Below are positions 2,007 to 18,210 of a stretch of 21,218 nt of DNA, one piece after another. The first letter of the stretch is position 1. The number at the start of each line of letters is the position of its first letter. Under the pieces are notes generated by a model. It did not search any database. It saw nothing but the letters and a program-made list of their open reading frames with translations, and was not told the DNA's origin. Both the position numbers and the translations under genes were made by a program. This DNA is from a virus. Location: IMG/VR virus record IMGVR_UViG_3300025435_000561, positions 1 to 21,218 of that record. The stretch is one strand, 5' to 3'.

Positions 2007-2306
2007 CTATACATGTCGGTTGATTTGTGTTGCCACGTTCCGGTCTAGGCAGAGAATGATGTGTGGAGTCTTGACCGTGATTGGTTCATCTCCGGGCGGA
2101 AACATTATGTATCCATTGGGATCATTGGTCTTGGTTCCACCTAGCCGTATGCCACCTTGGTCATGCAGTCGTCGTGCTTGGCCGCGACTCTGCGCCAATC
2201 CTGCTTGTACCACGATGCTGAACAAGTCCATGTACTCCACCCACCGGTCCAGTGGCACATAACGCCACTGTGTCAATACATCCAATAACGAAACATCACT
2301 TGTCAT
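2007..2306 (-). CDS. Stand-alone S4-like RNA-binding domain protein, 99 aa
   Basis: Residues about 33-57 (QAGLAQSRGQARRLHDQGG followed by IRLGG) match the S4 RNA-binding domain core. They are closest in feel to the C-terminal S4 domain of bacterial tyrosyl-tRNA synthetase, in which 'GLA.S..EARRLI.QGGV..NG' is typical. No catalytic domain is attached. Proteins of this kind bind structured RNA such as tRNA or rRNA, but the target here is unknown. The start is supported by AGGAG 5 nt upstream and overlaps the lipoprotein stop as ATGA (2303-2306), so it is probably co-translated from the lipoprotein promoter. A phage copy could act on host tRNA or on its own mRNA; there is no direct evidence for either. 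Confidence 0.6.
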   Translation of the reverse strand: MTSDVSLLDVLTQWRYVPLDRWVEYMDLFSIVVQAGLAQSRGQARRLHDQGGIRLGGTKTNDPNGYIMFPPGDEPITVKTPHIILCLDRNVATQINRHV

Positions 2307-3454
2307 TGCATCTCCTGTGTATAAAATGTGTTGTTGATTAATTCTAACATAAAAATCTTGTTTGTGCTAGGATTTTGGTAAACTGTAGCTGGATCAAATG
2401 ATGACCCGCCCATTGCTGTAAAAGCATTGGGTTTGTATTTTGTAGTTCCAACGTATAGACTTGCATTAAGTGCATCGCCACTAAAGAACACACTGTCTAC
2501 ACCGCCAACCATTAATTCACGTCCATAATACATACTGCGTTTGGACTCTAGTGTAGTCAAATATGAATAGGTATTTGGGCCAGTATAGGCCAATACTTCA
2601 CGTGGCCCAGGATCAGGTACATTAACACCGTCTATAGACAGTACAAAATCCTTATGTCCGTCTCCATTTAAATCTGCTACAACCACATCAACCGTATCAT
2701 AGTTTATGTCAGCTTGATAACCTACTGTACTGACCAGTGCCAGTGTGTGATCATATACTGCAATGGCGTCTTTAAAACCGGCTACGCTGTTGTTATTTGC
2801 CAAGTATACAGTATTGGTTGCACCTTCGGGAATAACAGCACAGGCCGAAAAGTAGTTGCCAGGTAGCATGGTGGTATTGAGTGTAAAACTAGATCCGCCG
2901 CTGTTGACAAACACTCCGCTGCCGGCTACTATGAGATCTAATTGCCCATCACCGTTTAAGTCCCCCATGCAAGCACCGTGTGCTTGGCTAGAGTCTGTCC
3001 AATCTTCCCTGCGGAACTGTGCTCCTGTGCCCCAGAACATGACACTATTTTCTGAGTGGATTGCAGTACCATCATCAAATCCGGGTAGAAAAATATCAGG
3101 ATGCCCATCACTGTTAAAGTCTGCAATAATGACACGCTGACTGCCTTTGATTACATTGTTGCTCAACAGAGTGCTGGTGCGGTCAGTTAAAGTGCCATTG
3201 GCATTTTGCACAAGTATATGAACATAGGCAGTAGCAACATTGCTGTTCCAGCCACTAACTACAACGTCTTCGAGCCCGTCCCCGTTGATGTCGCCTACTG
3301 TCATGTTGTAGACTAAATTGGTTTGAGTACCAATGCTGGAAACTTGAGTTCTGTTTGAAGTGACTGCAGGGTTGCTACTAGAACCCCCGCCAGGTCCGCC
3401 TCCACAAGCAGTTAATACTAAAGTTACAAGAATGGGTGCAATTAGTTTGTTCAT
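2303..3454 (-). CDS. FG-GAP/VCBS repeat lipoprotein
   Basis: The 383-residue product begins with a lipoprotein signal peptide: charged MNK, a hydrophobic run, then lipobox LTAC with Cys17 as the lipidated residue, followed by a Gly/Ser-rich linker. Four calcium-type D-x-N-x-D-G-x-x-D loops follow at about residues 55, 112, 165 and 261 (for example DINGDGLED and DLNGDGHKD). This is the hallmark of FG-GAP/VCBS repeats of integrin-alpha-like beta-propellers. The expected location is the periplasmic face or surface of a host membrane, with Gly at +2 favouring outer-membrane sorting in enterobacteria. There is no Shine-Dalgarno. The ATG coincides with the predicted +1 of a consensus promoter. The gene looks like an independently expressed accessory ('moron'-like) gene, and superinfection exclusion or host-surface modification is a plausible but unproved role. 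Confidence 0.82.
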   Translation of the reverse strand: MNKLIAPILVTLVLTACGGGPGGGSSSNPAVTSNRTQVSSIGTQTNLVYNMTVGDINGDGLEDVVVSGWNSNVATAYVHILVQNANGTLTDRTSTLLSNNVIKGSQRVIIADFNSDGHPDIFLPGFDDGTAIHSENSVMFWGTGAQFRREDWTDSSQAHGACMGDLNGDGQLDLIVAGSGVFVNSGGSSFTLNTTMLPGNYFSACAVIPEGATNTVYLANNNSVAGFKDAIAVYDHTLALVSTVGYQADINYDTVDVVVADLNGDGHKDFVLSIDGVNVPDPGPREVLAYTGPNTYSYLTTLESKRSMYYGRELMVGGVDSVFFSGDALNASLYVGTTKYKPNAFTAMGGSSFDPATVYQNPSTNKIFMLELINNTFYTQEMQ

Positions 3455-4406: not shown

Positions 4407-5108
4407 TTAACGCGGTGCAAATTCCTGTTGCAGTTTGATATTATCAAAAAACTCTTTCTTAACACTGGCATCCTCACGGAATGCGCCTTCTAGAACCGTA
4501 GTTTGAGTGAGGCTACTGTGCGCCATAATACCGCGATTCTCGCAACATCCGTGAACCGCTTGTATATAAACAGCCACATCATCACTGCCAGTGGCAAATT
4601 TAATCTCGCGAGCAATGTCCATGCAAAGTTCTTCTTGAAGAGTGCCTCGACGAGCGCACCACTGGGCGATACGTGTGTACTTGCTAAGTCCAATGAGCTT
4701 TGGTCCAGCAATAATGCCGATATACGCCACACCCGAAACAGGTTGGTGATGATGGCTGCACATGCTCTTAAGCTCACTACGCACAACCAACATGCCTTCG
4801 TATCGGCTGTCCGTATCATTCGGGAAAGCTGTAGCGTTAGGTGTAGGCTCGTAACGTCCAGCCATGATTTCGTTATAATACATTTTGGCGAGACGGCGTG
4901 CTGTGCCTTTTGAGTTCGGGTCATTTTCTCTATCAATCAATAGTGTGTCGAGAACTTGTTCAAAAGCCTGTGTGGCTTCTTCGATCAAAACCGCTTTTTG
5001 ATCTTCGTCTACATAATCGCTAATGTTGTCGCCGGCCCAAAAACGTTTACCGTTTGCCTGCATTTGTTTTCGAATTGCTTGTGATAAGTTTAAACTTCTG
5101 TCATTCAT
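4407..5108 (-). CDS. folE: GTP cyclohydrolase I
   Basis: FolE opens and rearranges GTP to 7,8-dihydroneopterin triphosphate, the entry step to both folate and 7-deazaguanines (preQ0, queuosine). The 233-residue product has the zinc and active-site motifs in order: SMCSHHHQPVSG with C117 and H120, IGLSKYTRIAQW, and the later zinc cysteine C188 followed by ENRG (family form C-M-T-M-R-G). The family is about 180-250 residues, so it is complete. It starts 2 nt after the degT-like stop, so it is translationally linked. In a phage that also carries QueD and a TGT-like protein, the pterin product is more likely meant for 7-deazaguanine than for folate. This last point is inference from context. Confidence 0.95.
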   Translation of the reverse strand: MNDRSLNLSQAIRKQMQANGKRFWAGDNISDYVDEDQKAVLIEEATQAFEQVLDTLLIDRENDPNSKGTARRLAKMYYNEIMAGRYEPTPNATAFPNDTDSRYEGMLVVRSELKSMCSHHHQPVSGVAYIGIIAGPKLIGLSKYTRIAQWCARRGTLQEELCMDIAREIKFATGSDDVAVYIQAVHGCCENRGIMAHSSLTQTTVLEGAFREDASVKKEFFDNIKLQQEFAPR

Positions 5109-5110
5109 AT

Positions 5111-5734
5111 TTAGTCCAAAATTGTAATTTTACGTAGGTCTGGATAGGGCACATAAATGGGTTTAGGATTAGATTCCTTAACACCCTCTAGCAGTGCCAA
5201 ACCCTGTACTGCTTCTTCGGGAGTAGGCTTATAATGATAACCGACTCTAAAAGTACCTTGGCTCTCCCAAGGTTTAGTATTTAGGTCGCGACCATCATAA
5301 CGCATACAAATTAATGCTTCATAAGCCTGTTGGTCATCTAACAGTATAGCACCACCACGGCCAATGTGTAAAGGCTTAGTATAGCCAAAGCTGAGGCACT
5401 GCATCATGCCCTCACGATACATGTTCTTTTCTAGTCTACGTGCGCTGTCCCAAATACGGGTGCCTTCAAACTTGTACTCGCCAACCCAATGCTGTCTGTG
5501 TGAAATAGTATCTGGGTAGTAGCCATAAGCAATACCCAACTTGTGCATGGTCATTGGGATGCTCAAATAGGTATAGGGAGTGAACGTGCATTGTTTGATC
5601 TTGTCATAGCGCAAACACAGCTCAATAGCGTGTGTGCAACAATCAGTCATGACCACATAGGGTGCGCCTGTGAACTCGGCCAGTGCCAGTTCAAATCTTT
5701 TAATATCGTCAAATGTCATCTGCTTCGGTACCAT
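5111..5734 (-). CDS. DegT/DnrJ/EryC1-like sugar aminotransferase, short form
   Basis: The product resembles the large domain of DegT-family PLP-dependent sugar aminotransferases. FELALAEFTGAPYVVMTDCCTHAIEL (residues about 14-39) matches the N-terminal cofactor region. WDSARRLEK has the PLP-ring aspartate near D96. SFGYTKPLHIGRGGAIL has the candidate Schiff-base lysine K120 and the family's G-x-GG turn. Full family members have about 370 residues. At 207 this protein lacks the C-terminal domain, so it may act with a partner (the other PLP-like protein at 3486 is a candidate) or serve another role. It overlaps the galE end by 19 nt. This order, GalE then DegT then FolE, suggests nucleotide-sugar work, perhaps making an amino sugar. 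Confidence 0.72.
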   Translation of the reverse strand: MVPKQMTFDDIKRFELALAEFTGAPYVVMTDCCTHAIELCLRYDKIKQCTFTPYTYLSIPMTMHKLGIAYGYYPDTISHRQHWVGEYKFEGTRIWDSARRLEKNMYREGMMQCLSFGYTKPLHIGRGGAILLDDQQAYEALICMRYDGRDLNTKPWESQGTFRVGYHYKPTPEEAVQGLALLEGVKESNPKPIYVPYPDLRKITILD

Positions 5735-6696
5735 TTATATGCTGAGTCAATGATGGTTTCAATATCACTGTATTGTGGAGTCCAGTTTAAGAGCTCTTGT
5801 GCCGTTCTAGTATCGGCGACTAATTCATCTGGATCTCCGGGTCTAGGTTCGCCGTAGTATACTTGGACAAGACCGTATTTTTCAAAAACATAATCAACAA
5901 TTTGTTTGTTACTAATGCCCTTGCCTGTGCCCAAGTTCATTACGTAAGCACCATCTTGTGGATAGTCGCTGGTCAAGAAGTGATAACCCTGAACGTGCGC
6001 CAGAGCAATGTCCCAAACGTGTACATAGTCACGCACACAAGTTCCGTCGGGTGTGTTAAAGTCCATGCCATTGATTGTAAAGGATCTTTCGGTTAAACTT
6101 GCCTCAAGCGCACGAGCTATGATGTGTGTAGCACCAGGTTCCTGCCCAAGGTCATATGTGTCAACCATGGCACCTGCTGCATTAAAGTAACGGAAGCACA
6201 AGCTGGTAATACCATAGCCTACGCTGTAGTCATGTAACATACGCTCTACAGTCAACTTGGTCTGTCCATAGGGACTGATGGGATTTAGATTTGCCTGTTC
6301 AACAATGGGCATGTTTTCTGGCGTACCATACACACTGGCACTGCTGCTGAACATGATACGTGGCTTGCGCTGCATATGGCGTATGACATTAAGCATCTTG
6401 ACTGTTTTAGACACGTTATTGTCCCAATACTCACCAGGATCTGTTACGCTAGGGCCTACTAGACTTGTACCAGCACAATGTACAATCAGCACAGGCTGTA
6501 AATCTACAATCATGGCCAAGGCTTCTTCGCTGGCAAAGTCTGCGTGTAAGAAACCGTCAATGCCGTTAAGAGTGTGTTCTCTACGTTCAGTGTCAATGAT
6601 GGTTACAATGTTTTCTGCGTCGGCATATTTGAATGCTCGTGCCACATGGCTACCAATGTAGCCGCAACCACCTGTGACAATTATATTTTTATTCAT
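5716..6696 (-). CDS. galE: NAD-dependent UDP-glucose 4-epimerase
   Basis: This 326-residue protein is an extended short-chain dehydrogenase/reductase. The NAD-binding G-x2-G-x2-G is VTGGCGYIGSH (about 7-17). The catalytic Ser/Tyr/Lys are in SSSASVYG (about 117-124) and SPYGQTK (Y143, K147). The HCAGTSLVGPSV and CFRYFNAAGA segments are GalE-specific in feel, as is the C-terminal GEPRPGDPDELVADT. GalE interconverts UDP-glucose and UDP-galactose, or the N-acetyl forms, in the cytoplasm. Length is normal for the family (about 330-340). It overlaps the 66-aa gene by 8 nt upstream and the degT-like gene by 19 nt downstream. It likely supplies a sugar nucleotide to the two phage glycosyltransferases, although modification of host surface sugars is equally possible. 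Confidence 0.93.
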   Translation of the reverse strand: MNKNIIVTGGCGYIGSHVARAFKYADAENIVTIIDTERREHTLNGIDGFLHADFASEEALAMIVDLQPVLIVHCAGTSLVGPSVTDPGEYWDNNVSKTVKMLNVIRHMQRKPRIMFSSSASVYGTPENMPIVEQANLNPISPYGQTKLTVERMLHDYSVGYGITSLCFRYFNAAGAMVDTYDLGQEPGATHIIARALEASLTERSFTINGMDFNTPDGTCVRDYVHVWDIALAHVQGYHFLTSDYPQDGAYVMNLGTGKGISNKQIVDYVFEKYGLVQVYYGEPRPGDPDELVADTRTAQELLNWTPQYSDIETIIDSAYKWYRSR

Positions 6697-6889
6697 CTTG
6701 GTTTTTAATGCCTGCTAGGTTTTTTAACATTACGTATTGGTCAAATAATTTAACCAATTCATTATCCTCGCCGAGATACCATTCACTTGCGGCCTTTAGG
6801 CTCAGTGCTCTTAACTGGTCTTCTGTTAGCTGGGGAAATTTCTCCCCAGCTAATGTGATCCAGATATCTAGTTTAGTATTTAGACTCAC
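6689..6889 (-). CDS. Small hypothetical protein, 66 aa, GTG start
   Basis: I do not recognise this protein. It is a short, acidic, mostly helical sequence (for example FPQLTEDQLRALSLKAASEW) with no membrane segment and no cysteines. The start is GTG at 6889, inside the last 17 nt of the glycosyltransferase gene, without a clear Shine-Dalgarno, so coupling to the upstream stop is likely. The end overlaps the galE start by 8 nt. Position between two sugar genes and absence of any competing frame support a real gene. Confidence 0.55.
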   Translation of the reverse strand: MSLNTKLDIWITLAGEKFPQLTEDQLRALSLKAASEWYLGEDNELVKLFDQYVMLKNLAGIKNQDE

Positions 6890-8048
6890 GTGTGTGCTTG
6901 CGATAATCAGTTGACATGCGTAACCATTGCTCGCCCTTACCTTCTAAGATATCACAAATGCGATCAACAGTGCCGTCGTTCCAGTCGCTGATACTGCCCA
7001 TCAGCGGACTTGGAGTCTCCAACAAGACTTCTAGTTTGTTCAGTGCATCTTCTATTGACCAAGGGATATAAAGCCGAGTATGATCATTACTAAAGGTTTC
7101 AGGAAAACTACGATAAGCAGGGTACAAAACATTGCAACCAAGTGCGTCAGCTTCGGATACGGTGTTTGAAACCCAATCTTGCAAAGCACAATTAAACACA
7201 ACACGACTGTCATTAACGATGTTGTAGTAGTCATTTTTAGCCAAGTCCTCGTTGAGTGTCAGCAAGCCACGTGCCTGCATGTCGCGAGTACGTTGCATAT
7301 AGCTGTCGTTGTTGCTTTTGAGTTTTGCACCTGAACACACAGCAAACTCTACGCCACTGTTGGGATGACGAGCATGCCATGCTTCAATAACATCCATGTA
7401 GAAGTCGGGCTGCTTCTCTTGATCCCAACGTGCGCTAAACACCACACGCCGTTTGCGATCCGCAAATGGTTTAATAGCGCCAACACGTTCTTGTACTTCT
7501 GCTTTGCCAAATGCCAGACCACTAATGTTGTAGATTGGCGATTTCCAACCTGCAATCTTCATGTGCATTACCATTTCTTCGTTGGTAGCAAGTACACCAT
7601 CAACGAATGAATCAACCATGCGTTCATAGTGACCCATAAAGTCGCCCATTCCCCAGACATGTACAAAATCATCTGGATCAATAGACTGAGCAAGACAACG
7701 AACAAAGATCCTTGGGCGCGATGCTGCCGGAATCTGTTTAATGATGTAAGGTAAACTTTCGATACCTGGCTGGAACATGTCCTCAAAGTAGATAACATCT
7801 TCATTGTTTATTTCTCCTGCCTTCATCATGCTAACCAAATTCATCAGCTGGCTCATGCCAAAGTATGTGCGTCCATGTGCGTCCAGCACTTGTCCTGTTA
7901 CAATAGCTTGGTCATTGCTGAGTGTGTCGCCGGGTACAATTTGATAATTGATGCCACGGCGTTCAAACACACGACTATTCCACTCTGTAAGTTGTAGTGT
8001 GTAACGTGCTTTGTAGGGCTCTAGGCCCATGTAGTATAGTTTACGCAC
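6873..8048 (-). CDS. GT-B fold glycosyltransferase (family 4-like)
   Basis: The 391-residue product looks like a GT-B glycosyltransferase. Its second half opens with the usual nucleotide-binding domain start (RRVVFSARWDQEKQPDFYMD, about 219-238). It continues through a DYYNIVNDSRVVFNCALQDW segment and a SNTVSEADALGCNVLYP segment that parallels the E-x7-E donor-sugar region. The N-terminal half contains a Rossmann-like acceptor domain. The acceptor is unknown: phage DNA, host surface glycan or phage structural protein are all possible. The start is GTG at 8048 with AAGGA six bases upstream, a good site. It lies 2 nt after the MazG-like gene. GalE and DegT-like genes follow, consistent with local sugar-nucleotide supply. 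Confidence 0.8.
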   Translation of the reverse strand: MRKLYYMGLEPYKARYTLQLTEWNSRVFERRGINYQIVPGDTLSNDQAIVTGQVLDAHGRTYFGMSQLMNLVSMMKAGEINNEDVIYFEDMFQPGIESLPYIIKQIPAASRPRIFVRCLAQSIDPDDFVHVWGMGDFMGHYERMVDSFVDGVLATNEEMVMHMKIAGWKSPIYNISGLAFGKAEVQERVGAIKPFADRKRRVVFSARWDQEKQPDFYMDVIEAWHARHPNSGVEFAVCSGAKLKSNNDSYMQRTRDMQARGLLTLNEDLAKNDYYNIVNDSRVVFNCALQDWVSNTVSEADALGCNVLYPAYRSFPETFSNDHTRLYIPWSIEDALNKLEVLLETPSPLMGSISDWNDGTVDRICDILEGKGEQWLRMSTDYRKHTRESKY

Positions 8049-8050
8049 AA

Positions 8051-8422
8051 TTAATCCTTTTTCAAGTATGGAGCAAGTTCAGGTGGTGTCCAGCCTACTG
8101 GCTTGAGCACTTTGCCATCTTCACGCTTACGTACCTTGCCAGTTTCTTTGTCGATCTTGGCAAAGTTGGTACGCATTACTTCTTTCCACGCACCTTCGGT
8201 ATCTGCACCCATGCTGTGTAATGCACCAATAGTAACAACTAGAATATCAATTAGTGCATCTAAAGTTTCGACTTTGTTGTGTGCTGTGATTGCATCATAT
8301 AATTCTCTAACTTCTTCGTCAATTAAAGAAACATATAAGTTAAATTGATCTTTGTTAAACTCGTCGACACTTTGGTCGCAGGCCTTCATGAACTTTTCTT
8401 GATCGCGGAATGGATTAGTCAT
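8051..8422 (-). CDS. MazG-like nucleoside triphosphate pyrophosphohydrolase
   Basis: The 123-residue all-helical product has the all-alpha NTP pyrophosphohydrolase signature: E-x2-E within DEEVRE (E37, E40), then E-x2-D-x3-D within ETLDALIDI (E52, D55, D59). These residues bind magnesium and the triphosphate. The tail (NFAKIDKETGKVRKREDGKVLKP, then VGW.PPEL) is typical of phage and PRA-PH-like members. Such enzymes hydrolyse (d)NTPs or related compounds to monophosphate and pyrophosphate, for pool sanitising, stringent-response effects or nucleotide supply. The exact substrate is not readable. Its start overlaps the 89-aa gene by one base (TAATG). Confidence 0.78.
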   Translation of the reverse strand: MTNPFRDQEKFMKACDQSVDEFNKDQFNLYVSLIDEEVRELYDAITAHNKVETLDALIDILVVTIGALHSMGADTEGAWKEVMRTNFAKIDKETGKVRKREDGKVLKPVGWTPPELAPYLKKD

Positions 8423-8702: not shown

Positions 8703-9143
8703 TTAAACGCTAATAAGTTGTGGGCGGAAAGTTTCATATTTAATGAGGGCACCGTTTTCGCCATCTTCGGCAACCTCAATCCAGACACTACGTCCAGGAT
8801 ACTTTGCAGCAATCTGTAGATACAGATCATCGCTAATCATTTCGCAGCTCTTGAAGTCAAGTTGGATTGTGCCATCGCGGTACAGATTCTCCAACCAGCG
8901 TTTAAACTGGATAAACTCAACATCTCGGTCGTTGTGGAATACATCGATCCAGACACGAAAATGGAATATGTGGCGATGAGGCACACCAAGAAAACTAACA
9001 TCGTATTCATCACCAGTTGCCAAACTGGGATCTGTTGCGGCTGCGGGGTACTTGTGGATTCCTTCTTTGCGGAATGTGATCCAAATTTTTCTGTCTGCAC
9101 GTTGTTTAATTCTTTCAATTGTATCTCTCTCATCTTGTGTCAT
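8703..9143 (-). CDS. QueD/PTPS-like T-fold protein without the catalytic cysteine
   Basis: With the ATG at 9143 the product has 146 residues. It aligns by eye with the pyruvoyltetrahydropterin synthase/QueD family. EGIHKYPAA (H30) corresponds to the AAHRLP zinc histidine, PHRHIFHFRVWI (H56, H58) corresponds to LHGH.Y.V, and VEFIQFKRWLE corresponds to the ..DFG.LK segment. A glutamate in IEVAEDGENG (about E123) corresponds to the substrate-binding glutamate. The cysteine that normally precedes HGH is absent, so it may have another activity than the QueD at 1-293. The ORF can be extended to a TTG at 9155, but GGAG six bases before ATG 9143 and the ATGA overlap with the nuclease stop favour 9143. 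Confidence 0.65.
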   Translation of the reverse strand: MTQDERDTIERIKQRADRKIWITFRKEGIHKYPAAATDPSLATGDEYDVSFLGVPHRHIFHFRVWIDVFHNDRDVEFIQFKRWLENLYRDGTIQLDFKSCEMISDDLYLQIAAKYPGRSVWIEVAEDGENGALIKYETFRPQLISV

Positions 9144-9730
9144 TGGTTGCTCCAATCAAATATAGGGTTTTTTAAGGTGGTTTTGGTCATGCTTTCAAGT
9201 TTATCAAAAGCATACAGACCAATTCGGAATTCATAAGATTCAGACTTGCCGGGTTGAGTTCGTTCAAGGTAGCCCCAGTATGTGCCAGGAATATAGTTAG
9301 GGCTAACACCATACTTGGTTAATTCAGCAGTGAGATTCGCTCTAGCAGTTTCGTAAGCATCTTTAATGAGACTTTGAATGTAGTCCGGAGAAAAATCAAA
9401 AATTTGATCTTCTACAATTACACGATCTTTTGTCTTAACACGATACTGTAATTGGAACTTTTTAAAAACAGCACTATCAATATAGTCAGTGTTGACAATA
9501 TCTTGTGGAGTCATGCAGGCAACGGTTTGTGCGCTAACACTGTCAATGTCACGCGACTTGACTTCTAAACCAAAGAATTCACAATCAACACCACGTCCGT
9601 TTTGCATGGCAATGCCACGTTCAACCAGCAACTGTTCAATATAACGACCGGCCTCGCCATTGGCTTTAGACGGAACGGTAATCCCTACTAGGGAAAATTT
9701 AAACTTGGTAATTTTAACTGTGGGTTTCAT
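9140..9730 (-). CDS. PD-(D/E)XK-like nuclease domain protein, 196 aa
   Basis: Residues 25-60 carry a pattern typical of restriction-endonuclease-like nucleases. A helix with a conserved acidic residue (GEAGRYIEQLL, E26 or E32) is followed by GRGVDCEFFGLEVKSR with D49, E56 and K58 in the D-x6-E-x-K spacing. This is a motif-level reading, not a family match. Such domains cut DNA with two metal ions, as in MvaI/BcnI-type enzymes, Holliday resolvases and phage exonucleases. The rest of the sequence has no recognised domain. It overlaps its neighbours at ATGA junctions on both sides (9727-9730, 9140-9143). The location in a cluster with a DNA-base-exchange enzyme is suggestive: it could degrade unmodified host DNA, or act in phage recombination. 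Confidence 0.55.
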   Translation of the reverse strand: MKPTVKITKFKFSLVGITVPSKANGEAGRYIEQLLVERGIAMQNGRGVDCEFFGLEVKSRDIDSVSAQTVACMTPQDIVNTDYIDSAVFKKFQLQYRVKTKDRVIVEDQIFDFSPDYIQSLIKDAYETARANLTAELTKYGVSPNYIPGTYWGYLERTQPGKSESYEFRIGLYAFDKLESMTKTTLKNPIFDWSNQ

Positions 9731-10242
9731 AGTGGTAGGTCCTTGGTGTATTGTGTCCAGTCAGTGAATACCTTGCGATCCATCAGTGAATGAACACCAT
9801 GACACCACACACCGGGGTTGGTTGAGTCAAAATCTATGTCGTCAATCTTTAATGTTGCGTTATAGTTCAGCAGTCGAATGTAGGGCATCTTGACAGAGAT
9901 CATGGGAATAAATGTGTTGTGTTCACACAATCCACTTTCTGCTAGTCCTTCTAAACAGCTGACATCAATATCCAGTGTGCAGAAATAGCCCTTGTCTAAA
10001 AATGGCATGATCATTTTTTGCCACTGTGTCCACTTGACGTAGTCATTGACATCAATATCGGGAAAACTTTGGTTAGCACCAAAGTAGATATGTTCAATGC
10101 TGTCTGCTCTGCTGAGATTTAGAGCAATGTCTTCTACAGCTTGTACGCCTACTACAAACAGAGTTTTCTTACCGTGTGCAGGAGTATGTTCTACTTCAAT
10201 GCCAGTGAAGAATGTTACTTCTTCGTGCCCGTCTCTAATCAT
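9727..10242 (-). CDS. Conserved phage-type hypothetical protein, 171 aa
   Basis: No family with known activity is recognised. The N-terminus (FFTGIEVEHTPAHGKKTLFVVG) is strongly patterned and looks like a conserved motif followed by an alternating strand/helix region with several acidic pairs (LDIDVSCLEGL, KIDDIDFDS). This could be an alpha/beta domain. It is coupled by ATGA overlaps to the radical SAM gene upstream (10239-10242) and to the nuclease-like gene downstream (9727-9730). A function joined to the radical SAM protein, such as a partner or substrate, is possible but not shown. Confidence 0.65.
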   Translation of the reverse strand: MIRDGHEEVTFFTGIEVEHTPAHGKKTLFVVGVQAVEDIALNLSRADSIEHIYFGANQSFPDIDVNDYVKWTQWQKMIMPFLDKGYFCTLDIDVSCLEGLAESGLCEHNTFIPMISVKMPYIRLLNYNATLKIDDIDFDSTNPGVWCHGVHSLMDRKVFTDWTQYTKDLPL

Positions 10243-11411
10243 AAATTCAAATTAAAAGTTTTGTTGAAAGATTGATTCCTAATAGTGTCTAAAGTCTTTG
10301 TGTACTCGATAAACTTATCAGAATCTCTAGTATGTAGTGTAGCAGAACTCAAATGAGTTTGCAAGCCTTTTAAAGGGGAAATGTACTCAATTGGATTAAT
10401 TGAGTCTTTGCTCAAGATATCTATACAACCTTGTAGATTGGACAATGCAGTATCCAAAAGTGCAGTTGGCACAGCACTGGGCTGTAGGTATTCGGGATAT
10501 TGCACTATTGAAAAAATTATCTCAAATGGTTGATTGGGGTAGTGTAATTTTGTTGATCTAAACCAATTGGCTAAAGCTGATAATCCAAACACACTATAAG
10601 CGCTCACAGTGGTATTGATAAAAACACTTTGCTTGAGTGCAAGTATGGCATTTAGATTTCGTTCAACAGTATGCCATATTGTTCCATTGCGTATGTATTC
10701 TGCCAGTTCTCCTACAGCATCAATGCTAACAGTCCAATGTACATTTTCAAATTGAGATATTAAATTCAACAGTTTAGGATTAACTACTGATGCATTGGTT
10801 GTGATCAATAACTCCACGTCTGTTTTACCTTTGTTGATTAATGTTGATAAAACATCTATGTGTTCTTTGATCAGCAAGGGCTCACCGCCAGTTAAGTTTA
10901 AGCGTTTGAGGGTTGGCAAAAAAGACTCTATAGAGTTGACAATGTCCTTGTGTATTGGTACCACAGGCCTAAAGTATTTTTTCAATACGGGATTAAGTTT
11001 AATTTCTTTATCTATACTGGTACTAAATGCTGGCTCGCAACTACGGCAGCTGAAGTTGCAGAGATTATTATATCTTAAATCCAAGTATTCAATTTGATTT
11101 GGCACAGTATCTACGGTATAGCGCCAGTCTCTAAGAGCACTTTGTCTAGTACTACCAAACCCCATCTGTTCGTTTGCCACACAGCCTTGACATTCTTTTG
11201 GTACTTGACCTTGAGCGATTGTGTCCTTAACTGCCTGAAGATACGCACTTGCGTTAAATTCTGCAGGACTCAATTGCAGTTCTTTTGTACTTGAACAGCA
11301 GATCTTAACACCAGTTGGTTGAATAAACTGATGTATCCAAGGCAAAGGACAAAAGAATTGTTCAGGCATCGGGGTGTTGTGCTCGTAGCTTAACAAGCTC
11401 GTCACGAACAT
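10239..11411 (-). CDS. Radical SAM protein with N-terminal twitch/SPASM-like cysteines
   Basis: The radical SAM iron-sulphur motif C-x3-C-x2-C is at residues 118-125 (CNFSCRSC), within the typical DLRYNNLCNFSCRSCEP context. TGGEPLL, the SAM-binding GGE motif, follows at about 174-180. Before it are paired cysteines typical of an auxiliary-cluster region: FCPLPW (C21), ICCSS (C38, C39) and CQGC (C74, C77). This matches the twitch-type architecture seen in phage and anaerobic-type maturases, not the short QueE. The substrate is unknown. Two starts are possible. ATG 11411 has an AAAGGAA site but overlaps the YdcH-like gene by 50 nt. ATG 11369 (MPEQFFCPLPW) gives an N-terminus typical of the family and an ATGCCTGA overlap with that gene. 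Confidence 0.85.
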   Translation of the reverse strand: MFVTSLLSYEHNTPMPEQFFCPLPWIHQFIQPTGVKICCSSTKELQLSPAEFNASAYLQAVKDTIAQGQVPKECQGCVANEQMGFGSTRQSALRDWRYTVDTVPNQIEYLDLRYNNLCNFSCRSCEPAFSTSIDKEIKLNPVLKKYFRPVVPIHKDIVNSIESFLPTLKRLNLTGGEPLLIKEHIDVLSTLINKGKTDVELLITTNASVVNPKLLNLISQFENVHWTVSIDAVGELAEYIRNGTIWHTVERNLNAILALKQSVFINTTVSAYSVFGLSALANWFRSTKLHYPNQPFEIIFSIVQYPEYLQPSAVPTALLDTALSNLQGCIDILSKDSINPIEYISPLKGLQTHLSSATLHTRDSDKFIEYTKTLDTIRNQSFNKTFNLNL

Positions 11412-11541
11412 GCAATCGTTCCTTTTTTAGTTTGGCAATTTGAATATCGTCAAACAGTTCGTGCTTTTCTAGATTATCAATTTGTTTGTCTAGCTGTGCG
11501 TGTTGTTCTTGTAAATGTGCAATACGTCCCTGATAACTCAT
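11362..11541 (-). CDS. YdcH/DUF465-like small coiled-coil protein, 59 aa
   Basis: I read this gene manually; it is too short for common length cut-offs. The 59 residues begin MSYQGRIAHLQEQHAQLDK and include IAKLKKERLHVRDEL. This is the heptad-like helix-turn-helix pattern of DUF465/YdcH proteins (H-x2-LD-x2-I ... LKK-x-KL-x-L-x-DE). Their function is unknown in bacteria. The start is strongly supported: GGAGG sits 5 nt upstream, and ATGA overlaps the DpdA-like stop (11538-11541). The stop overlaps the possible radical SAM start at 11369. Confidence 0.78.
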   Translation of the reverse strand: MSYQGRIAHLQEQHAQLDKQIDNLEKHELFDDIQIAKLKKERLHVRDELVKLRAQHPDA

Positions 11542-13211
11542 TGTTCCTCCAAATTGTCTAACAGTTGTTCGTTTAGTTCGGGCTCTTCATATTCAGGCAT
11601 TTCAAATAGACTGTTAAAGATAGCATCAGTAACGTGTCTAACCTTCTTGCCTAGACGTCCACGTCCGCCGATGATCTCTGTCCAGTAGTTGTCATACTGA
11701 TCAATGATTGCTTGACTTGCCTCTCTAGTAGGTGCTGCAAAGATACGTTCGACAATATCTTCAAATCGTTCGCCAGTTGCCTTACTACGCATCATGCTGG
11801 GGAATTCGCCACTATCAAAACGTCTGTTGGCTTCTTGTACTGCTGTCAAGTGCATCCAAACATTATGCCCCATTAAGAGTGCATAGCTAAAACTGTCCCA
11901 ACTTGTTTTGCCCCATTTGTCATTTTTGTTTTTGTCAGGCAACACATCATATAGTGTTTCGTCTTGGAAGTTTTCGGGTGTAATAGTTACACCTGCCTTG
12001 GCTACACCTGGTTTGTAGATACAGATGTCTCGTATCTGACACATGGCACTGATGGGACTTTCTGTAAAACTTGGGAAGAAACCATCCTGTACCACTGCAT
12101 CGCTATACTTGCGTGTGTCTGTTGCGTACTTTTTATTGTCTGCACTTGGTCCCATCTTGTAGCTCCACTTGCCATCGTGTGGGAATGTGTTTTCGTAATA
12201 GACTTGTCCGTTGGCAGTAGCCAGGAAAGGACTTGCACAGTCAAAGCTGATGGTAAAGTTGGGGTTGACGTGCTTGCGAACAGCACGTTGAATAACTGTG
12301 AGTAGCACAGCCCATTCCAGTTTACTGGTGCCCAAGAAGTGCATCCAATCATGTACGCCTTGTTCTAGTAATCCATCATACTTGAGTGCAATCAATCGGC
12401 TCAGGATCAAGTGTACATCACACATGTTCTGTCCTCCCATAGCCCAGCCGTTAAAGTGACGTCCGGGATACTTAACAGGATCGCAGTACTGCTTCATTGT
12501 GTCATACCAAGCATCGGCTGCGCTGTGACTTGCACCTTGCAGCACGTTTAGAATCTTAACACCGCCTGCATCAATACCCTTGCGATTTGCAATAAAGTAC
12601 TCGTTATTGTACTTGGTAGCATCAATCAGTTCTTGTTCAGTTTTGAAGTTACCAATCTTGCTGTTCTTTTCAGGAAACTCGCGAACCCAAGTTGGAATAT
12701 CCAGTGTCATGCCATAGTTGGCAACGCCATCCATCCATTTAAGAATAGCTTCTCGTTTGCTCTGTGCCATGTCCAGTTGTTTTTGATATGCTTTTAGTTC
12801 ATCACCAGCAAGCGTGGCCAACTTGTTTTGTACATGGGTACTGCTAGGTGCATGCCACTCGCCTTCCCACAGGCCTTTGGCAATCTGGAACCCGCCCGAG
12901 TCACCTAGTAGTGTAGTATTGGGATCACGTTGTCGAATCATGTCCTCGCCACTGTTGGGTTTGGTCAAGTCCAAGTTGGCATGTCCGCCTGAATACAGAC
13001 TCCACTTGTAGGGAAACGCACCCTTTTGATCATCAAGCCAGTTTATCTGCTCCATGTCTGTGAGTTTGTCTGCTAGTGCCTGTGGAAAACGTGCAGGATC
13101 TACATATTGCTCTTGTCTCTGCTTGCCAATAAATGTGGCGTAAAAGCCTGAGATAGCAGGAAGGAATACTGCGTAGTCTAGTTGTTTTGCGGTTAGGTTA
13201 TCTTGTGCCAT
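11538..13211 (-). CDS. dpdA: DpdA-like TGT-fold DNA 7-deazaguanine transglycosylase
   Basis: The 557-residue product follows tRNA-guanine transglycosylase motif order: DSGGFQ (D104-Q109, the base-binding loop), an aspartate in LDIPTW (D171), NVLQG (Q225-G226), GWAMGG (255-260), HFLG and SFDCASPF with candidate nucleophile D324. A GHNVWMH segment near H449 matches the TGT 'HN' zinc-ligand region. In the DpdA family such enzymes exchange guanine in DNA for preQ0 or a related 7-deazaguanine. The usual C-x-C-x2-C zinc site is not visible; only C391 and C397 are nearby, so the zinc site seems altered. The 557 residues exceed bacterial TGT (about 375). A DNA role is inferred from the phage setting and partners FolE and QueD; a tRNA role cannot be excluded. 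The start (ATG 13211) overlaps the sulfotransferase end by 14 nt. Confidence 0.8.
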   Translation of the reverse strand: MAQDNLTAKQLDYAVFLPAISGFYATFIGKQRQEQYVDPARFPQALADKLTDMEQINWLDDQKGAFPYKWSLYSGGHANLDLTKPNSGEDMIRQRDPNTTLLGDSGGFQIAKGLWEGEWHAPSSTHVQNKLATLAGDELKAYQKQLDMAQSKREAILKWMDGVANYGMTLDIPTWVREFPEKNSKIGNFKTEQELIDATKYNNEYFIANRKGIDAGGVKILNVLQGASHSAADAWYDTMKQYCDPVKYPGRHFNGWAMGGQNMCDVHLILSRLIALKYDGLLEQGVHDWMHFLGTSKLEWAVLLTVIQRAVRKHVNPNFTISFDCASPFLATANGQVYYENTFPHDGKWSYKMGPSADNKKYATDTRKYSDAVVQDGFFPSFTESPISAMCQIRDICIYKPGVAKAGVTITPENFQDETLYDVLPDKNKNDKWGKTSWDSFSYALLMGHNVWMHLTAVQEANRRFDSGEFPSMMRSKATGERFEDIVERIFAAPTREASQAIIDQYDNYWTEIIGGRGRLGKKVRHVTDAIFNSLFEMPEYEEPELNEQLLDNLEEQ

Positions 13212-13824
13212 AAAATTGTACTTGTTCTATTAGTTTATAATCATCAGCAAAATGCTGTTTAAGTTTGTCAAGGTATTTAGGTTCGCGGTCGATTAACTGT
13301 TTAAAAATTCTTTTAAATCTGCTGCGATTTGGGCATTGCTCACTAACATGCTGATAAGCATATTTGTGATACTTGTTTTGGCCCAAATGGTCAGCAATAT
13401 AGTTACTAAAATTGCTACGATACTCATTGTTACACCACATAAAGGTACAGTTGTCTGTGTCTAAACCCTCAATGAATTTTACTTGACGTTCAGTATGATC
13501 GTCAAATGTTACTCTATCAAAAATTAGTTCTTCAGTTTCACGAAACGGCACCTGCATGTTGACATGATACAGTGTCAAATACTCTGCAATACCACTTAGC
13601 CAACGATCTATGGGATCGCGTAGTATTACGAGTGCATGTTTATTTAGGCCGTCAGTGCGATAATTGTAAAATTCCCAACCCCAATCTTGTAGGTTAGGCT
13701 TGGTCCAGCTGCTGGCATTTTTTGGAATGTGTACATACATAAGGTCAATGTCCGGGCGGCTCATACACTCGCCATAGACATGACCTTTATGTTGCCATTC
13801 GTTGATACCAGTGGTTACAATCAC
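13198..13824 (-). CDS. Sulfotransferase-like protein, 208 aa
   Basis: The protein has the two PAPS-binding signatures of the sulfotransferase superfamily. HIPKNASS (about 32-39) is the 5'-phosphosulfate loop and VILRDPIDRWLSG (about 66-78) is the 3'-phosphate element. Sulfotransferases move sulfate from PAPS to a hydroxyl or amine on sugar, protein or small molecule. The acceptor is unknown. The length is short but within the range of small phage/bacterial members. The start is GTG at 13824 overlapping the gp45 stop as GTGA; an internal ATG (M21) is an alternative but lies only 11 residues before the phosphosulfate loop. It sits between the clamp and the DpdA-like gene, so it may modify a DNA base, a surface glycan or a phage protein. 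None of these is proven. Confidence 0.75.
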   Translation of the reverse strand: MIVTTGINEWQHKGHVYGECMSRPDIDLMYVHIPKNASSWTKPNLQDWGWEFYNYRTDGLNKHALVILRDPIDRWLSGIAEYLTLYHVNMQVPFRETEELIFDRVTFDDHTERQVKFIEGLDTDNCTFMWCNNEYRSNFSNYIADHLGQNKYHKYAYQHVSEQCPNRSRFKRIFKQLIDREPKYLDKLKQHFADDYKLIEQVQFYGTR

Positions 13825-14558
13825 TTGGTCAGTGCTGGGATAATGTAGTTGTATTCAATCAAGCCCGAGTCAACAGTGATCATGCTGGCACCGTCTTCGC
13901 TGATTTTAAATGCCTTGTCACCTGGTAGTGCCAAGATTGCTAGTACAACACCAACCGGCCAGTGGAACTGTGTGCGTGTAAAGTTACCCGCGACACCTGC
14001 TTGGAACACAAAGTTACCTGCGTGGCTTGTTGGGTCACCAAAGAAAAACTTGAGATCGCCGTTTTCAGTCTTGGCAGTGAATGTTGTTTCTTCACTGTTG
14101 GCTGCTGCTTGATAACGCAAGCGTTGAATGTTTTGTACAGTAGGAGTAAACTCTACGTTCCATTTAACGCCACGGAATTTAGGGCTCTTGAGTTTGTCGT
14201 TGATGACCATTGAGTTCATGTAGCGATAGTCGTTCTTGAAGTCACCTGCGGCATTTTCAAAATGCAATCCGCTGGGCACAGTATCGCCATTTGCGTCAGT
14301 TTGTTTGTTGACAGTGATCTTGGCATCCTTGGCATATTCTTCAATGCCCAGAATTGTTTTTAGTTTGCCAAGATTGGGCATACCAAATGTGCCAATAAAG
14401 TCCGGATGCGGATCTTTGAATTTAGCTTCTAGAATAACAGTACGTTCTTCGCTGATTGTGCTGATCTCAATAGTGTCGGCAGTGCCAACGATCTTGATCA
14501 TGTCAATGCCACCAAGTCCGTTTGTGTGTTGTACGATGTCTTTTAAATAGTCTTGCAT
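13821..14558 (-). CDS. 45: DNA polymerase sliding clamp, gp45-like
   Basis: The 245-residue product resembles the T4 gp45 sliding clamp, a trimer that tethers gp43 to DNA and also activates late transcription. Shared features are the overall size (T4 gp45 is 228 residues), the N-terminal region with GGIDMIKIVG and a GMPNLGKLKTILGI segment typical of the clamp loop, and the regular beta-rich pattern of the two domains. It lies downstream of gp43 with one methyltransferase gene between, in the expected replication neighbourhood. A TAGGAG site lies upstream of the ATG at 14558, and a good sigma-70-like promoter starts the transcript. The downstream sulfotransferase is translationally coupled. 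Confidence 0.85.
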   Translation of the reverse strand: MQDYLKDIVQHTNGLGGIDMIKIVGTADTIEISTISEERTVILEAKFKDPHPDFIGTFGMPNLGKLKTILGIEEYAKDAKITVNKQTDANGDTVPSGLHFENAAGDFKNDYRYMNSMVINDKLKSPKFRGVKWNVEFTPTVQNIQRLRYQAAANSEETTFTAKTENGDLKFFFGDPTSHAGNFVFQAGVAGNFTRTQFHWPVGVVLAILALPGDKAFKISEDGASMITVDSGLIEYNYIIPALTK

Positions 14559-14577: not shown

Positions 14578-14607
14578 ATTGTAACAGTTTGTATTTAGAT
14601 CTGTCAA
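14578..14607 (-). promoter_or_regulatory. Sigma-70-like promoter upstream of gp45
   Basis: The minus strand shows TTGACA (14607-14602), an 18-nt spacer and TACAAT (14583-14578; 5 of 6 consensus bases). The expected start is about 12-15 nt before the ATG, leaving a short leader with TAGGAG. As at the lipoprotein promoter, TTGACA contains the TGA stop of the preceding gene, here the methyltransferase. It likely drives the long gp45-to-PLP gene cluster. Confidence 0.65.
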
Positions 14608-15542
14608 GGGGTTCTTCGTTTTATTTCGCCCAATACCTGGTGTGCTTTTACTGTGCGTAGCTTACCGGGGCGTTTTATTTCAAGCCAACTGATGTTGGGC
14701 TCTTCGTTAAATGTGGATACTATTTCAAATCCCAAACTTTGACAAGTCGGAACAAGAATGCTTTGTGGCAAGTATGTTTGAGCAAAGTTCTCTGCCATAC
14801 CTGCACCAGCTGGAGTATCGCCGTCGTTGTAGCTGAACAAGAATACTCCACCGGGACGCAACAAAGTAATCATCTGCTTCAGCACCTGTGTGATTGTGTC
14901 TAAACTGATATAGTTGAAATGTCCCCAACTGAACACAAATCCAAACTGTCCTTGTGGTAAGGCTGTAAAGTTATGATTGTTTAAGGGATATTTGCGTAGA
15001 CGTCTTTGATACTCTTCGGGAAACTTGCTGTTGGCACTGGCAAGGAATTCGGGATACTTGTCTACAATGTACAAAGGATCGGCGGCCACAAGATACTGTG
15101 TCCATTCGCCATCTCTACAGCCAATTTCTAAACTTGGATACTTCCAATCAGTATAGAGCTGTATACGTTGCTTGACTAGTTGCTCAACATCTTCACGTAG
15201 GTGTATACGACGATGATTACGCACGTGATCAAAACCACCGTCACGTTCTTCAAGTTCATAACTGTTGGCAAACAGGCTGTGACTGAGTGCAGTGATTTTC
15301 TGATCAATCTCACTAATTTTATTTTTGTATTCGGCCAAGGGCGACTCAACCTTGACCAGTAGATCGTTATAGTAAGCAACCAGCTGGTCAATGTATTCAA
15401 TATCGTTGGCTTCAATCACAGGAACCTGTAGTTTTACGTTCTCAATTTGAGTACGCAAACGGTCAATGGCCATTGCAGCTTCATCGGTGTTGAAGTTTTC
15501 CTTTAGACTCTTTTTAAGAGTAACTAGGTCGTATAAGGCCAT
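14604..15542 (-). CDS. Class I SAM-dependent methyltransferase with N-terminal helical region
   Basis: The C-terminal half has class I methyltransferase features. SLEIGCRDGEW (about residues 137-147 from the chosen start) is SAM-binding motif I, DKYPEF follows, FGFVFSWGHFNYISLD is motif IV-like, and LLRPGGVFLFSYND is the post-IV motif. The N-terminal about 100 residues are helical with heptad-like repeats (IDRLRTQIENVKLQVPVIEA), suggesting oligomerisation or a partner-binding coiled coil. The acceptor is unknown. The open frame extends to 15596, but ATG 15542 is better. It has GGGA five bases upstream, starts one base after the gp43 stop, and avoids a long overlap with gp43. It ends inside the -35 box of the gp45 promoter. 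Confidence 0.75.
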   Translation of the reverse strand: MALYDLVTLKKSLKENFNTDEAAMAIDRLRTQIENVKLQVPVIEANDIEYIDQLVAYYNDLLVKVESPLAEYKNKISEIDQKITALSHSLFANSYELEERDGGFDHVRNHRRIHLREDVEQLVKQRIQLYTDWKYPSLEIGCRDGEWTQYLVAADPLYIVDKYPEFLASANSKFPEEYQRRLRKYPLNNHNFTALPQGQFGFVFSWGHFNYISLDTITQVLKQMITLLRPGGVFLFSYNDGDTPAGAGMAENFAQTYLPQSILVPTCQSLGFEIVSTFNEEPNISWLEIKRPGKLRTVKAHQVLGEIKRRTP

Positions 15543-15543
15543 A

Positions 15544-18210
15544 TCAGTCCCAACTAAACAAGCTGTCAAATGTTGACTTGGTGTCAGTGTTGGCACTAAT
15601 GTCCCAATCCAACACGCCCAACAAGTTCTCTACCTTTTGATCAACAATGGCAGTTTCCATCTTGTCTTGGTCAAATGGCAGTTCCTTGAACCATGCAGGA
15701 ATACGAGACTCGTCTGTGGGATAACCAACTGACGTATAGCCTAGCGGATTGTCTTTGAGTTTGCACACGATAGTCTTCATGCCGTCAATGATCTTGGCAC
15801 TGTAGTTGTCCCCGTGCATTCTGCGTAGATTGTTCCAGTTCATTGCCGCACGAACGTGTCCTGGCATGTTGGCTTTGCCCAGCTTGGCTTCCTCGGCTGT
15901 GTACTTGGTCAAGTTGTTGACACGTTTAGGCGTACCCTTTTCCCAAGCAGGCAACTGTTGGAATGTGATCTTAAAGTCACGCACCTTTGAAATGATAGCA
16001 TCACGTTCTGCACCTGTTAGCACATCTAACAAGATCTCGCTTAGGAAGTCCTGCATGACTTTGGGAGTATCTGACCGCTTCAAGTCCAAGCCCATGGCCT
16101 TTACTTTGCCTGGCTTGCCGTCAACGTCTAGTCGTTTACCTTCTAGATCAAAGATTAGTACAGCATAACGCTTCTTCTTGATAAACAGGCCCTTCTCGGC
16201 AATCAGTTCACGACCGCCTTTGATGATAGCACCCATTTCTCTTGGGCAGTGACAAGCACGTTCCATAAAGCCCGGGAACGACTCGTTAACGCTGTCTGCA
16301 ATAGTGTCGTAGAGTGCAATACAGACATCCTTGTTCCATTCCATGCGTCCTGCCTCAATGTCTTTCTTAAACACAGGATATGCACTAAAGTAGACACTGT
16401 CTGTGTCACCATAGATAACAGTCTCGCCCACATGGTCATATACCCCAGTTAGACATTCATTAACGTGACTGTCCATGTGCTTGGCAATGGTACGTCCTGT
16501 TAGCGTAGTGCTTTGTCCGATACGCTTGTCAAAGAATCTGCAACCTGGGTTTAAGATAGCGCCATAGAGACTGTTCAAGTTAATCTTCTTAACCAGCTGA
16601 CGCTTGTCCCAGAATGCAATGTCCTCTTTGTCTGTGGCTTCCTTCTTCTTGGCCTGCATCTCTTTACGTTCTGCATACCAACGTTCCAACAAGCCCGGAA
16701 TGATACCCTTCATGTCATACTTGAATATGGTACCGTTTGCACTTAATGTCCAAGGTTGATTGCTGTCAAATATCATGCGCCACACCTCTGCGGCTGTGTG
16801 CGTTGTACTTTGCCGGCTTTCTTCCCAGTCAATAGTGATCTCGATACCCTGTTGGCACTCCATTACTGCGGTATATTCCAAACTACCAAACAAACCTTCC
16901 CATGCGTCAGCAAAGTTGCCGCCATTAACGGCCATCTTGTCTGCGATGTACTTGTCGGTCATTGTTTGTCGTAACTGTCCGACAATGGTTTCTGGTCCCA
17001 TGTTGAGGGCGCGAATAGCCGAGGGATAGAGACTGTTGATGTCGATGGCGCCAATGTATTCGTGCATACCCCGTTTGGGATAAGCAACATAGGCACCTGC
17101 GGCTTGCGTTTGACCTTGTTCATCACGACCTTTCCTATTAGGGACAATCATACCACGCCCGTGTGCTTCATTAATGATAGCTTGCTCAGTTACAGCGACC
17201 GCACCCATTGTGGTCTGTAACAACACAGTATTATCGTGAGCAATTTCGTTGGCCAGATCTAGAAAGCGTAGTTTCTTGTCTAGCTTGGCCAACAACATGG
17301 TATCTTGTCTGTTATAGTCAATGAACTTGGGAAAGTCTTTGTTGTACAATTGGTCCAACGTGCCTTCATAGGCAACTTTGCGCTCATCTAGTTCATATTC
17401 GCCAATAGCGTCCAAACTATAACTATGTCGTTCTTCGTATGTGTACTTGCGATACAGTTGCATATAGTCCATATGCACACGGCCCACAAGGTCAAAGGTG
17501 ATGTTGGTAGCACCAAAGCGTTCAAATTCACGCTGTTTAGGAAATTGATTCCATAAACATAATCTGCGTGTGTCGTCTTTGGTCAACACCCGCATGGTAC
17601 GCATAATGGTATAGGGAATATCGAAACCCTCACTGTTCCAACCACTTAGGATGTCGGCGTCTTGGATCAAGTCAAAGAATGTATTCAACATGTCTTCTTC
17701 TCGTTCAAACAAGAAACAGTTGTCAAAGCGATCACAGATCTCTTGTGCGCTTTCCCAGCTGTATGTTTTGGGAGGCAATACCAAGGTGACTAGTTTGTCT
17801 AGCCAATCTAAGTAGACTGAGAAGGCAGTGATCTTGTTAAATGGATCTGTAGTTGGAGCGTAGCCTTTGTCGGGGTGGAAATCCACCTCAATGTCAAAAA
17901 ATGCTGTTTGCAGTTTTGGTGACGTTGCACCTAGATAGTTGTTTTCAAGGCAGCGGAAGATTGGGTTAATATCACTTTCCCAATGCTGCTTGTTGCTCTG
18001 TAGTTTTAGTTCTTTGTGATATTCTTTGTTGCTACGACTACTGAATCTTGTAACAGGGGTGTCAAAGATAGTACGATATTTGCCCTTGGGGTCGTCGTAG
18101 TAGAATACATATTCTGCGGGAAAGTCACGGTATTCTCTAACACCGTTTACACGTTCGACAACGTGAATGCGATCTTTTGCTCTGTCATAGAGAGCGTCAA
18201 CATAACTCAT
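15544..18210 (-). CDS. 43: Family B replicative DNA polymerase, gp43-like
   Basis: At 888 residues the protein is nearly as long as T4 gp43 (898). Exonuclease motifs are intact: TAFFDIEVD (D106, E108), SGWNSEGFDIPY (D197) and IDYNRQDT (D303). Polymerase motifs are AIDINSLYPSAIR (D390), the KKINLNSLYG helix and YGDTDSVYF (D602, D604), with KKKRYAV later. Both proofreading and polymerase activities should be present. The C-terminal tail (FDSLFSWD) resembles the aromatic clamp-binding peptide of T4-type polymerases, fitting the gp45 gene nearby. AAGGAG lies four bases before the ATG at 18210, preceded directly by a hairpin resembling the gp43 autoregulatory operator. Confidence 0.97.
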   Translation of the reverse strand: MSYVDALYDRAKDRIHVVERVNGVREYRDFPAEYVFYYDDPKGKYRTIFDTPVTRFSSRSNKEYHKELKLQSNKQHWESDINPIFRCLENNYLGATSPKLQTAFFDIEVDFHPDKGYAPTTDPFNKITAFSVYLDWLDKLVTLVLPPKTYSWESAQEICDRFDNCFLFEREEDMLNTFFDLIQDADILSGWNSEGFDIPYTIMRTMRVLTKDDTRRLCLWNQFPKQREFERFGATNITFDLVGRVHMDYMQLYRKYTYEERHSYSLDAIGEYELDERKVAYEGTLDQLYNKDFPKFIDYNRQDTMLLAKLDKKLRFLDLANEIAHDNTVLLQTTMGAVAVTEQAIINEAHGRGMIVPNRKGRDEQGQTQAAGAYVAYPKRGMHEYIGAIDINSLYPSAIRALNMGPETIVGQLRQTMTDKYIADKMAVNGGNFADAWEGLFGSLEYTAVMECQQGIEITIDWEESRQSTTHTAAEVWRMIFDSNQPWTLSANGTIFKYDMKGIIPGLLERWYAERKEMQAKKKEATDKEDIAFWDKRQLVKKINLNSLYGAILNPGCRFFDKRIGQSTTLTGRTIAKHMDSHVNECLTGVYDHVGETVIYGDTDSVYFSAYPVFKKDIEAGRMEWNKDVCIALYDTIADSVNESFPGFMERACHCPREMGAIIKGGRELIAEKGLFIKKKRYAVLIFDLEGKRLDVDGKPGKVKAMGLDLKRSDTPKVMQDFLSEILLDVLTGAERDAIISKVRDFKITFQQLPAWEKGTPKRVNNLTKYTAEEAKLGKANMPGHVRAAMNWNNLRRMHGDNYSAKIIDGMKTIVCKLKDNPLGYTSVGYPTDESRIPAWFKELPFDQDKMETAIVDQKVENLLGVLDWDISANTDTKSTFDSLFSWD

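Follow-up and report, generated by a model that had tools for sequence, protein, structure and literature searches.

We found that a 21,218-base stretch of DNA (the window, which is the complete record of a virus of bacteria and hence a fragment) carries what is probably a phage DNA-hypermodification operon, taken as a whole with a QueC-free 7-deazaguanine route, a glycosyltransferase step and a sliding-clamp step. In the proposed pathway, a QueD-fold protein that we refer to as T7 would process CDG instead of QueC making preQ0, possibly decarboxylating CDG to 7-deazaguanine, and a DpdA-like transglycosylase would swap guanines of new phage DNA for the base made from CDG. The exchange would proceed by TGT-type double displacement, with D324 as the nucleophile and D104 as the general acid/base. 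A GT-B glycosyltransferase would then probably add a sugar from a donor shaped by GalE and DegT, and DpdA would travel with the sliding clamp via a motif in its tail. The modified base would likely hide the phage DNA from bacterial defences, protecting it against restriction. The genes concerned and their neighbours are as follows.

1–293, minus strand: QueD, first 97 residues (PF01242, 46 bits against a cut-off of 22.4), catalytic Cys31 present
4407–5108, minus strand: FolE, GTP cyclohydrolase I (PF01227, E 3.5e-38)
5111–5734, minus strand: short DegT/DnrJ-type aminotransferase, possible amino-sugar supply (PF01041, E 3.5e-14)
5716–6696, minus strand: GalE UDP-glucose 4-epimerase, possible sugar-donor supply (TIGR01179, 285 bits against a cut-off of 262)
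6873–8048, minus strand: GT-B family-4-like glycosyltransferase (Pfam Glycos_transf_1, conserved donor-site residues)
8703–9155, minus strand: T7, a QueD-fold (T-fold) protein (AlphaFold2 model, alignment, QueC exclusion)
9727–10242, minus strand: c4, 171 residues, of no known family
10239–11411, minus strand: radical-SAM protein, variable neighbour (PF04055, E 1e-9; phrog_14086, E 3e-22)
11538–13211, minus strand: DpdA-like guanine transglycosylase (P0001), 557 residues (motifs, fold, profile)
13198–13824, minus strand: sulfotransferase-like protein, variable neighbour (phrog_3347, a weak match at E 1e-4)
13821–14558, minus strand: X, the gene just before dpdA, candidate sliding clamp (phrog_12062; synteny)
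14604–15596, minus strand: class I methyltransferase between the polymerase and the candidate clamp gene (PF08242, E 1e-10; 90 of 177 loci)
15544–18210, minus strand: B-family DNA polymerase, C-terminus TFDSLFSWD (phrog_262, E 8e-194)

The order X–DpdA–c4–T7–glycosyltransferase–(GalE–DegT)–FolE–QueD–QueE is kept across divergent contigs. Among 177 loci, DpdA is present in 177, X in 173 (on the same strand, before dpdA), c4 in 149, T7 in 131, the glycosyltransferase in 125, a GalE-like gene in 67, DegT in 44, FolE in 81, QueD in 25 and QueE in 37, the later operon genes often being lost to contig ends or flank limits. A first-pass annotation of the window had called both FolE and QueD clear. 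FolE is indeed clear and keeps its metal-ligand Cys and His residues; QueD is real, but the left edge of the window cuts the gene. Between the two lie genes for a PP-loop ATPase-like protein (375–1211), a cysteine-dioxygenase-like protein (1540–1998), an S4-domain protein (2007–2306) and a lipoprotein-like protein (2303–3454); the PP-loop ORF was considered as QueC and rejected, as it has no QueC match. The annotation had also raised sulfotransferase, radical-SAM and T-fold genes as candidates for further decoration of the base. The T-fold gene, T7, is conserved, whereas the sulfotransferase gene (29 of 177 contigs) and the radical-SAM gene (44 of 177) are variable. Besides T7, the glycosyltransferase and c4 count as the operon's conserved decoration genes, c4 being found also in PA5oct and Acidovorax phage ACP17. 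The radical-SAM protein is not taken as QueE, its best family being phrog_14086, with only weak matches to QueE profiles.

A search for queE and queC had been proposed with the same annotation. QueE is found in every larger relative, about 1–7 kb past QueD in the closest large ones, whereas full-length QueC is absent from the relatives that carry T7. In the largest window-type relatives, QueD and QueE lie at 275.5 and 276.5 kb (G001), at 84.1 and 82.8 kb on the reverse strand (G003), and at 30.4 and 37.6 kb (G002). Because QueE comes after QueD in these large relatives, we expect it just past the left edge of the window. The complete preQ0 gene set (FolE, QueD, QueE and QueC together) was not found, the window itself being a fragment. 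In most of the phage QueE proteins (L011:19451–20323, L144:11397–12248 and others; alignment A6), a long insertion (tens of residues) separates the second cluster cysteine from the third, and all three cysteines are invariant.

The product of 11538–13211 contains all the transglycosylase motifs in the annotated order: DSGGFQ (residues 104–109), D171, NVLQG (222–226), GWAMGG (255–260) and SFDC (322–325), with HFLG at 291–294. Three aspartates of this set align with DpdA2.

12900–12902, minus strand: codon of D104 (in DSGGFQ), aligned with D75 of DpdA2
12699–12701, minus strand: codon of D171, aligned with D111 of DpdA2
12240–12242, minus strand: codon of D324 (in SFDC), where TGTs have their nucleophile, aligned with D263 of DpdA2

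This ORF is not a chance one, because it has relatives in at least about 600 IMG/VR stretches, comparison with its nearest homologues gives a pN/pS of about 0.17, and D104, D171 and G226 are identical in 177 of 177 aligned homologues, with D324 kept in 176 and replaced by a gap in the remaining one. Relatives at 27–37% identity occur in 13 phage records, where all are labelled "hypothetical protein".

The AlphaFold2 model of the transglycosylase (pLDDT 82, pTM 0.82) was compared with known folds. In a Foldseek search of the PDB, archaeosine TGT (1iq8) was the best match and the sole one below 1e-3, at E 6e-6, with Cap10 and QTRT2 ranking next. TM-scores to TGT, at 0.32–0.52, are low, although the E-value and the motifs agree. 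In BFVD, the model matched the phage nt-1 protein R9TGF0 (E 4e-9), which at 464 residues has the length of the DpdA2 protein, and among all BFVD matches below 1e-3 the named ones are TGT or DpdA, the others being uncharacterised. Alignment of the window family to the DpdA2 profile by hhalign gave a probability of 95 and E 3.3e-8, with the three aspartates aligned. The comparison with TGT and DpdA that had been suggested as a check supports the first reading of this gene, and the predicted TIM-barrel TGT fold and the catalytic Asp trio support its membership in the TGT/DpdA superfamily.

Other comparisons bound the family. Profile–profile comparison detected no similarity to the DpdA of phage 9g, and that with the phiST-type short TGT was not significant. 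A single-sequence tblastn search from the window transglycosylase did not find nt-1 DpdA2; the window-family profile, at the sensitivity used, picked up nothing related in the Campylobacter CP220, nt-1, 9g and phiST genomes; and the window had no match to phages at the DNA level. Sequence searches of the transglycosylase against Pfam, NCBIfam, PHROGs, PADLOC and the PDB returned nothing useful. The Pfam TGT profile PF01702 does not match it either, but we do not take this as evidence against a TGT, since the known DpdAs of 9g and nt-1 are equally missed. The zinc site of tRNA TGTs (CxCxxC...H) is not kept in the window family, in which only D395-x-C397 and H449 are conserved in that region. 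As DpdA2 matches by profile and fold, while the 9g and phiST-type profile tests are negative, the window family is best regarded as sister to DpdA2. The DpdA2 proteins (nt-1 YP_008125322 and those of ACP17, X1, pf16 and KVP40) share its active-site plan and are shorter, at 424–464 residues against 557. DNA is the best reading of the substrate. Fold, profile and gene context support a DpdA-like DNA-guanine transglycosylase, and it is likely that this phage has a DNA-modifying DpdA system.

The T7 model (pLDDT 91.7) has E. coli QueD (4ntk) as its best PDB match, at E 3e-4. The T-fold metal ligands H34, H60 and H62 are invariant in 132 of 132 members, and in all 132 a leucine, Leu56, occupies the position of the QueD catalytic Cys, four residues before HxH. 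We considered T7 as the QueD of the pathway and rejected this, as it lacks the catalytic Cys and co-occurs with a true QueD; their coexistence in ACP17, phiST and other phages indicates that T7 is a separate enzyme. Homologues are also found in the bacterial genomes L210, L211 and L215 (Amycolatopsis), L216 (Paenibacillus polymyxa) and L217 (Bradyrhizobium). The Amycolatopsis homologues adjoin QueD–QueE–FolE (L210 also has phage-like genes nearby), the Paenibacillus one a radical-SAM gene and the Bradyrhizobium one a 9g-like DpdA.

We compared 29 QueE-bearing phage genomes (22 in a first set and 7 in a second) and found T7 in 23 and full-length QueC in 6, with no genome having both; these genomes are not phylogenetically independent, and combinatorial odds would overstate the significance. 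In the first set, full-length QueC is present in nt-1, 9g, Vibrio phage 2.275.O and G021, and T7 is absent from exactly these. In the second, Ahp1, Bakedbeans, D479, RHph_I1_18 and MA9V-3 have T7 and no full-length QueC, while the DpdA2 phages pf16 and KVP40, which are absent from the T7 search results, have QueC. G017, D479 and X1 show partial QueC-like matches, which we take to be other PP-loop ATPases. T7 is found with four types of DpdA, namely the window family, DpdA2 (which it adjoins in ACP17, BUCT-ZZ01 and X1), the short TGT (phiST and MA9V-3) and the 9g-like DpdA (Bradyrhizobium). Window-type DpdA, in turn, is accompanied by QueC in 2.275.O and G021, and in 2.275.O it adjoins QueF, a YhhQ-like transporter, QueC, FolE and QueD. 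Because T7 spans DpdA families and window-type DpdAs also pair with QueC, the swap is one of T7 for QueC and not of one DpdA type for another.

QueC consumes CDG, the product of QueE. As T7 replaces QueC, the simplest reading of the gene distribution is that T7 consumes CDG as well, and it probably acts on CDG in QueC's stead. We consider a QueC-free, T7-dependent branch likely, and infer from the relatives that this very phage has no QueC. Since preQ0 needs QueC, which is missing in full-length form from the relatives with this layout, preQ0 is probably not the base. The first-pass annotation had named "preQ0 or derivatives"; this is the weakest part of its claim and probably wrong, the same-layout relatives carrying T7 and the glycosyltransferase instead. 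Cui et al. (2023) reportedly predicted a CDG decarboxylase, DpdL, and are said to have reported dDG and dCDG. DpdL would thus act at the same step as we propose for T7, and T7 may equal DpdL. If so, the step has already been named, and the novelty lies in its link with the glycosyltransferase and the window DpdA family.

Known systems resemble the window layout in part. Phage nt-1 uses QueC and has neither T7 nor the glycosyltransferase. In Enterobacteria phage 9g (DpdA1, dG+ pathway), the transglycosylase adjoins an annotated replicative clamp, which precedes dpdA, and FolE–QueD–QueC–QueE; 9g likewise has QueC and lacks T7 and the glycosyltransferase. The phages with the short TGT (phiST and MA9V-3; possibly DpdA3) share FolE, QueE, T7 and the lack of QueC with the window layout, but their TGT has 259–264 residues, T7 and the TGT are separated by a small kinase-like gene (L192:7431–9579, L103:13983–15568), and they have no glycosyltransferase. 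The biosynthesis of huimycin uses QueD, QueE and FolE homologues and a glycosyltransferase acting on a 7-deazaguanine base, as predicted here, but with a QueC homologue and for a free natural product rather than DNA (PMC7439116).

In the glycosyltransferase family the best match to Glycos_transf_1 has E 8e-12; for the window's own protein there is a match to PF13524 at 3e-4, short of the cut-off. The alignment shows that the family keeps the donor-site residues R207, K212 and E299. In the first set, the gene is present in 17 of 18 T7-bearing genomes and in 0 of 4 QueC-bearing ones. Across the 29 genomes it is found in 17 of the 23 with T7 and in none with QueC; GalE and DegT are frequent companions and come after it in the lineage of the window. 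The T7 route does not always involve glycosylation, because six T7-bearing genomes (phiST and all five T7-bearing phages of the second set) have no such gene. Where T7 and the glycosyltransferase share a contig, they lie on the same strand in 118 of 118 loci, with a median gap of 260 bases. The same T7 and glycosyltransferase stand beside the DpdA2 of ACP17, BUCT-ZZ01 and X1, and the window glycosyltransferase shares 65% identity with its counterpart in cyanophage BUCT-ZZ01. As the BUCT-ZZ01 DpdA is of another family, the T7–glycosyltransferase module moves independently of DpdA. Whether the inserted base is sugar-decorated we judge to be about an even call. If T7 removed the carboxylate, this would leave no obvious handle at C7 for the predicted glycosylation.

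The replication link rests on X and on the DpdA tail. The size and position of X and the neighbouring B-family polymerase suggest a clamp, for which reason we regard it as a candidate; clamp profile and PDB searches of X gave no support. The tail motif is the following.

11604–11618, minus strand: FNSLF (residues 532–536), in the disordered DpdA tail, candidate clamp-binding motif resembling TFDSLFSWD

F536 of this motif is invariant in alignment A3. Among 172 complete DpdA homologues, an FNxLF-like tail motif is present in 104, where shuffling the tails yields about 10; for a less strict LF motif the numbers are 155 and 57. These figures are descriptive, as the motif was picked after viewing the tails. 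Polymerases encoded on these contigs have C-termini like TFDSLFSWD, 151 of 155 containing [LFM]F, and in T4-type phages such a polymerase C-terminus is the clamp-binding tail (gp43/gp45). The ends of polymerase and DpdA2 are SLDDLFE and TLDELFE in ACP17, and SLESLFG and SLEELFG in X1. The DpdA of 9g ends in RLQDLFDE, which also resembles the window-family tails. These near-identical DpdA2 and polymerase ends, and an SLEDFFND end in a second glycosyltransferase-like protein of BUCT-ZZ01, are seen among L104:11725–12999 and 5795–8359, L186:8968–10281 and 148–2826, and L185:7665–9008. The resemblance of the DpdA tail motif to the polymerase C-terminus suggests a DpdA that is carried by the clamp and works behind the replication fork.

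The transglycosylase could instead act on host or phage tRNA and alter decoding during infection, as might be expected of a TGT-superfamily protein whose best PDB match is a tRNA enzyme, in a phage whose QueE and QueD might supply queuosine synthesis. We regard this as very improbable: dpdA sits in a replication block, the window contains no tRNA gene, and without QueC and QueF the product would differ from the base used by bacterial TGT. Moreover, the nearest characterised relative is nt-1 DpdA2, and the DNA of nt-1 holds dPreQ0 (PMC6884629). A second alternative is a classical preQ0 system, as the first-pass annotation had proposed, in which QueC is encoded outside the window or by the host, dPreQ0 or dG+ is inserted, and T7 and the glycosyltransferase serve other ends. 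FolE and QueD are present, window-type DpdA occurs with QueC in 2.275.O and G021, and most hosts make preQ0 (Hutinet 2019, PMC6884629). Such a system is nevertheless unlikely, given that QueC is missing from large same-layout relatives (PA5oct, ACP17 and BUCT-ZZ01) that keep QueE and QueD, and that T7 and full-length QueC exclude each other throughout the 29 genomes.

A closer alternative accepts T7 as a CDG decarboxylase (DpdL) and holds that the DNA contains plain 2'-deoxy-7-deazaguanine, with the glycosyltransferase acting on the cell surface or other targets. The DpdL, dDG and dCDG said to be described by Cui et al. count in its favour, as do the six phages (phiST and five others) with T7 and no glycosyltransferase and the frequency of surface-modifying glycosyltransferases in phage genomes. 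However, the glycosyltransferase follows T7 closely wherever both are present and stays with it when the DpdA family changes, and we consider the plain base possible but rather unlikely. The reading that we favour, in its full form, is that the DNA of this clade holds a sugar-bearing 7-deazaguanine, derived from CDG with no QueC involved and inserted by a clamp-tethered DpdA; this combination we put forward tentatively, at somewhat less than even.

The system is common, being present in at least about 600 IMG/VR stretches that are mostly unannotated, and it has relatives in the culturable phages PA5oct, Paride, ACP17, BUCT-ZZ01 and X1. The named genes and isolates make each step directly testable by mass spectrometry. 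If true, our proposal would add to phage 7-deazaguanine chemistry a QueC-free branch, probably leading to a sugar-decorated guanine, and clamp tethering would suggest a way for an enzyme that swaps bases to work on all newly made DNA. DNA with a sugar on its 7-deazaguanine would apparently be new, and so would a transglycosylase coupled to the clamp.
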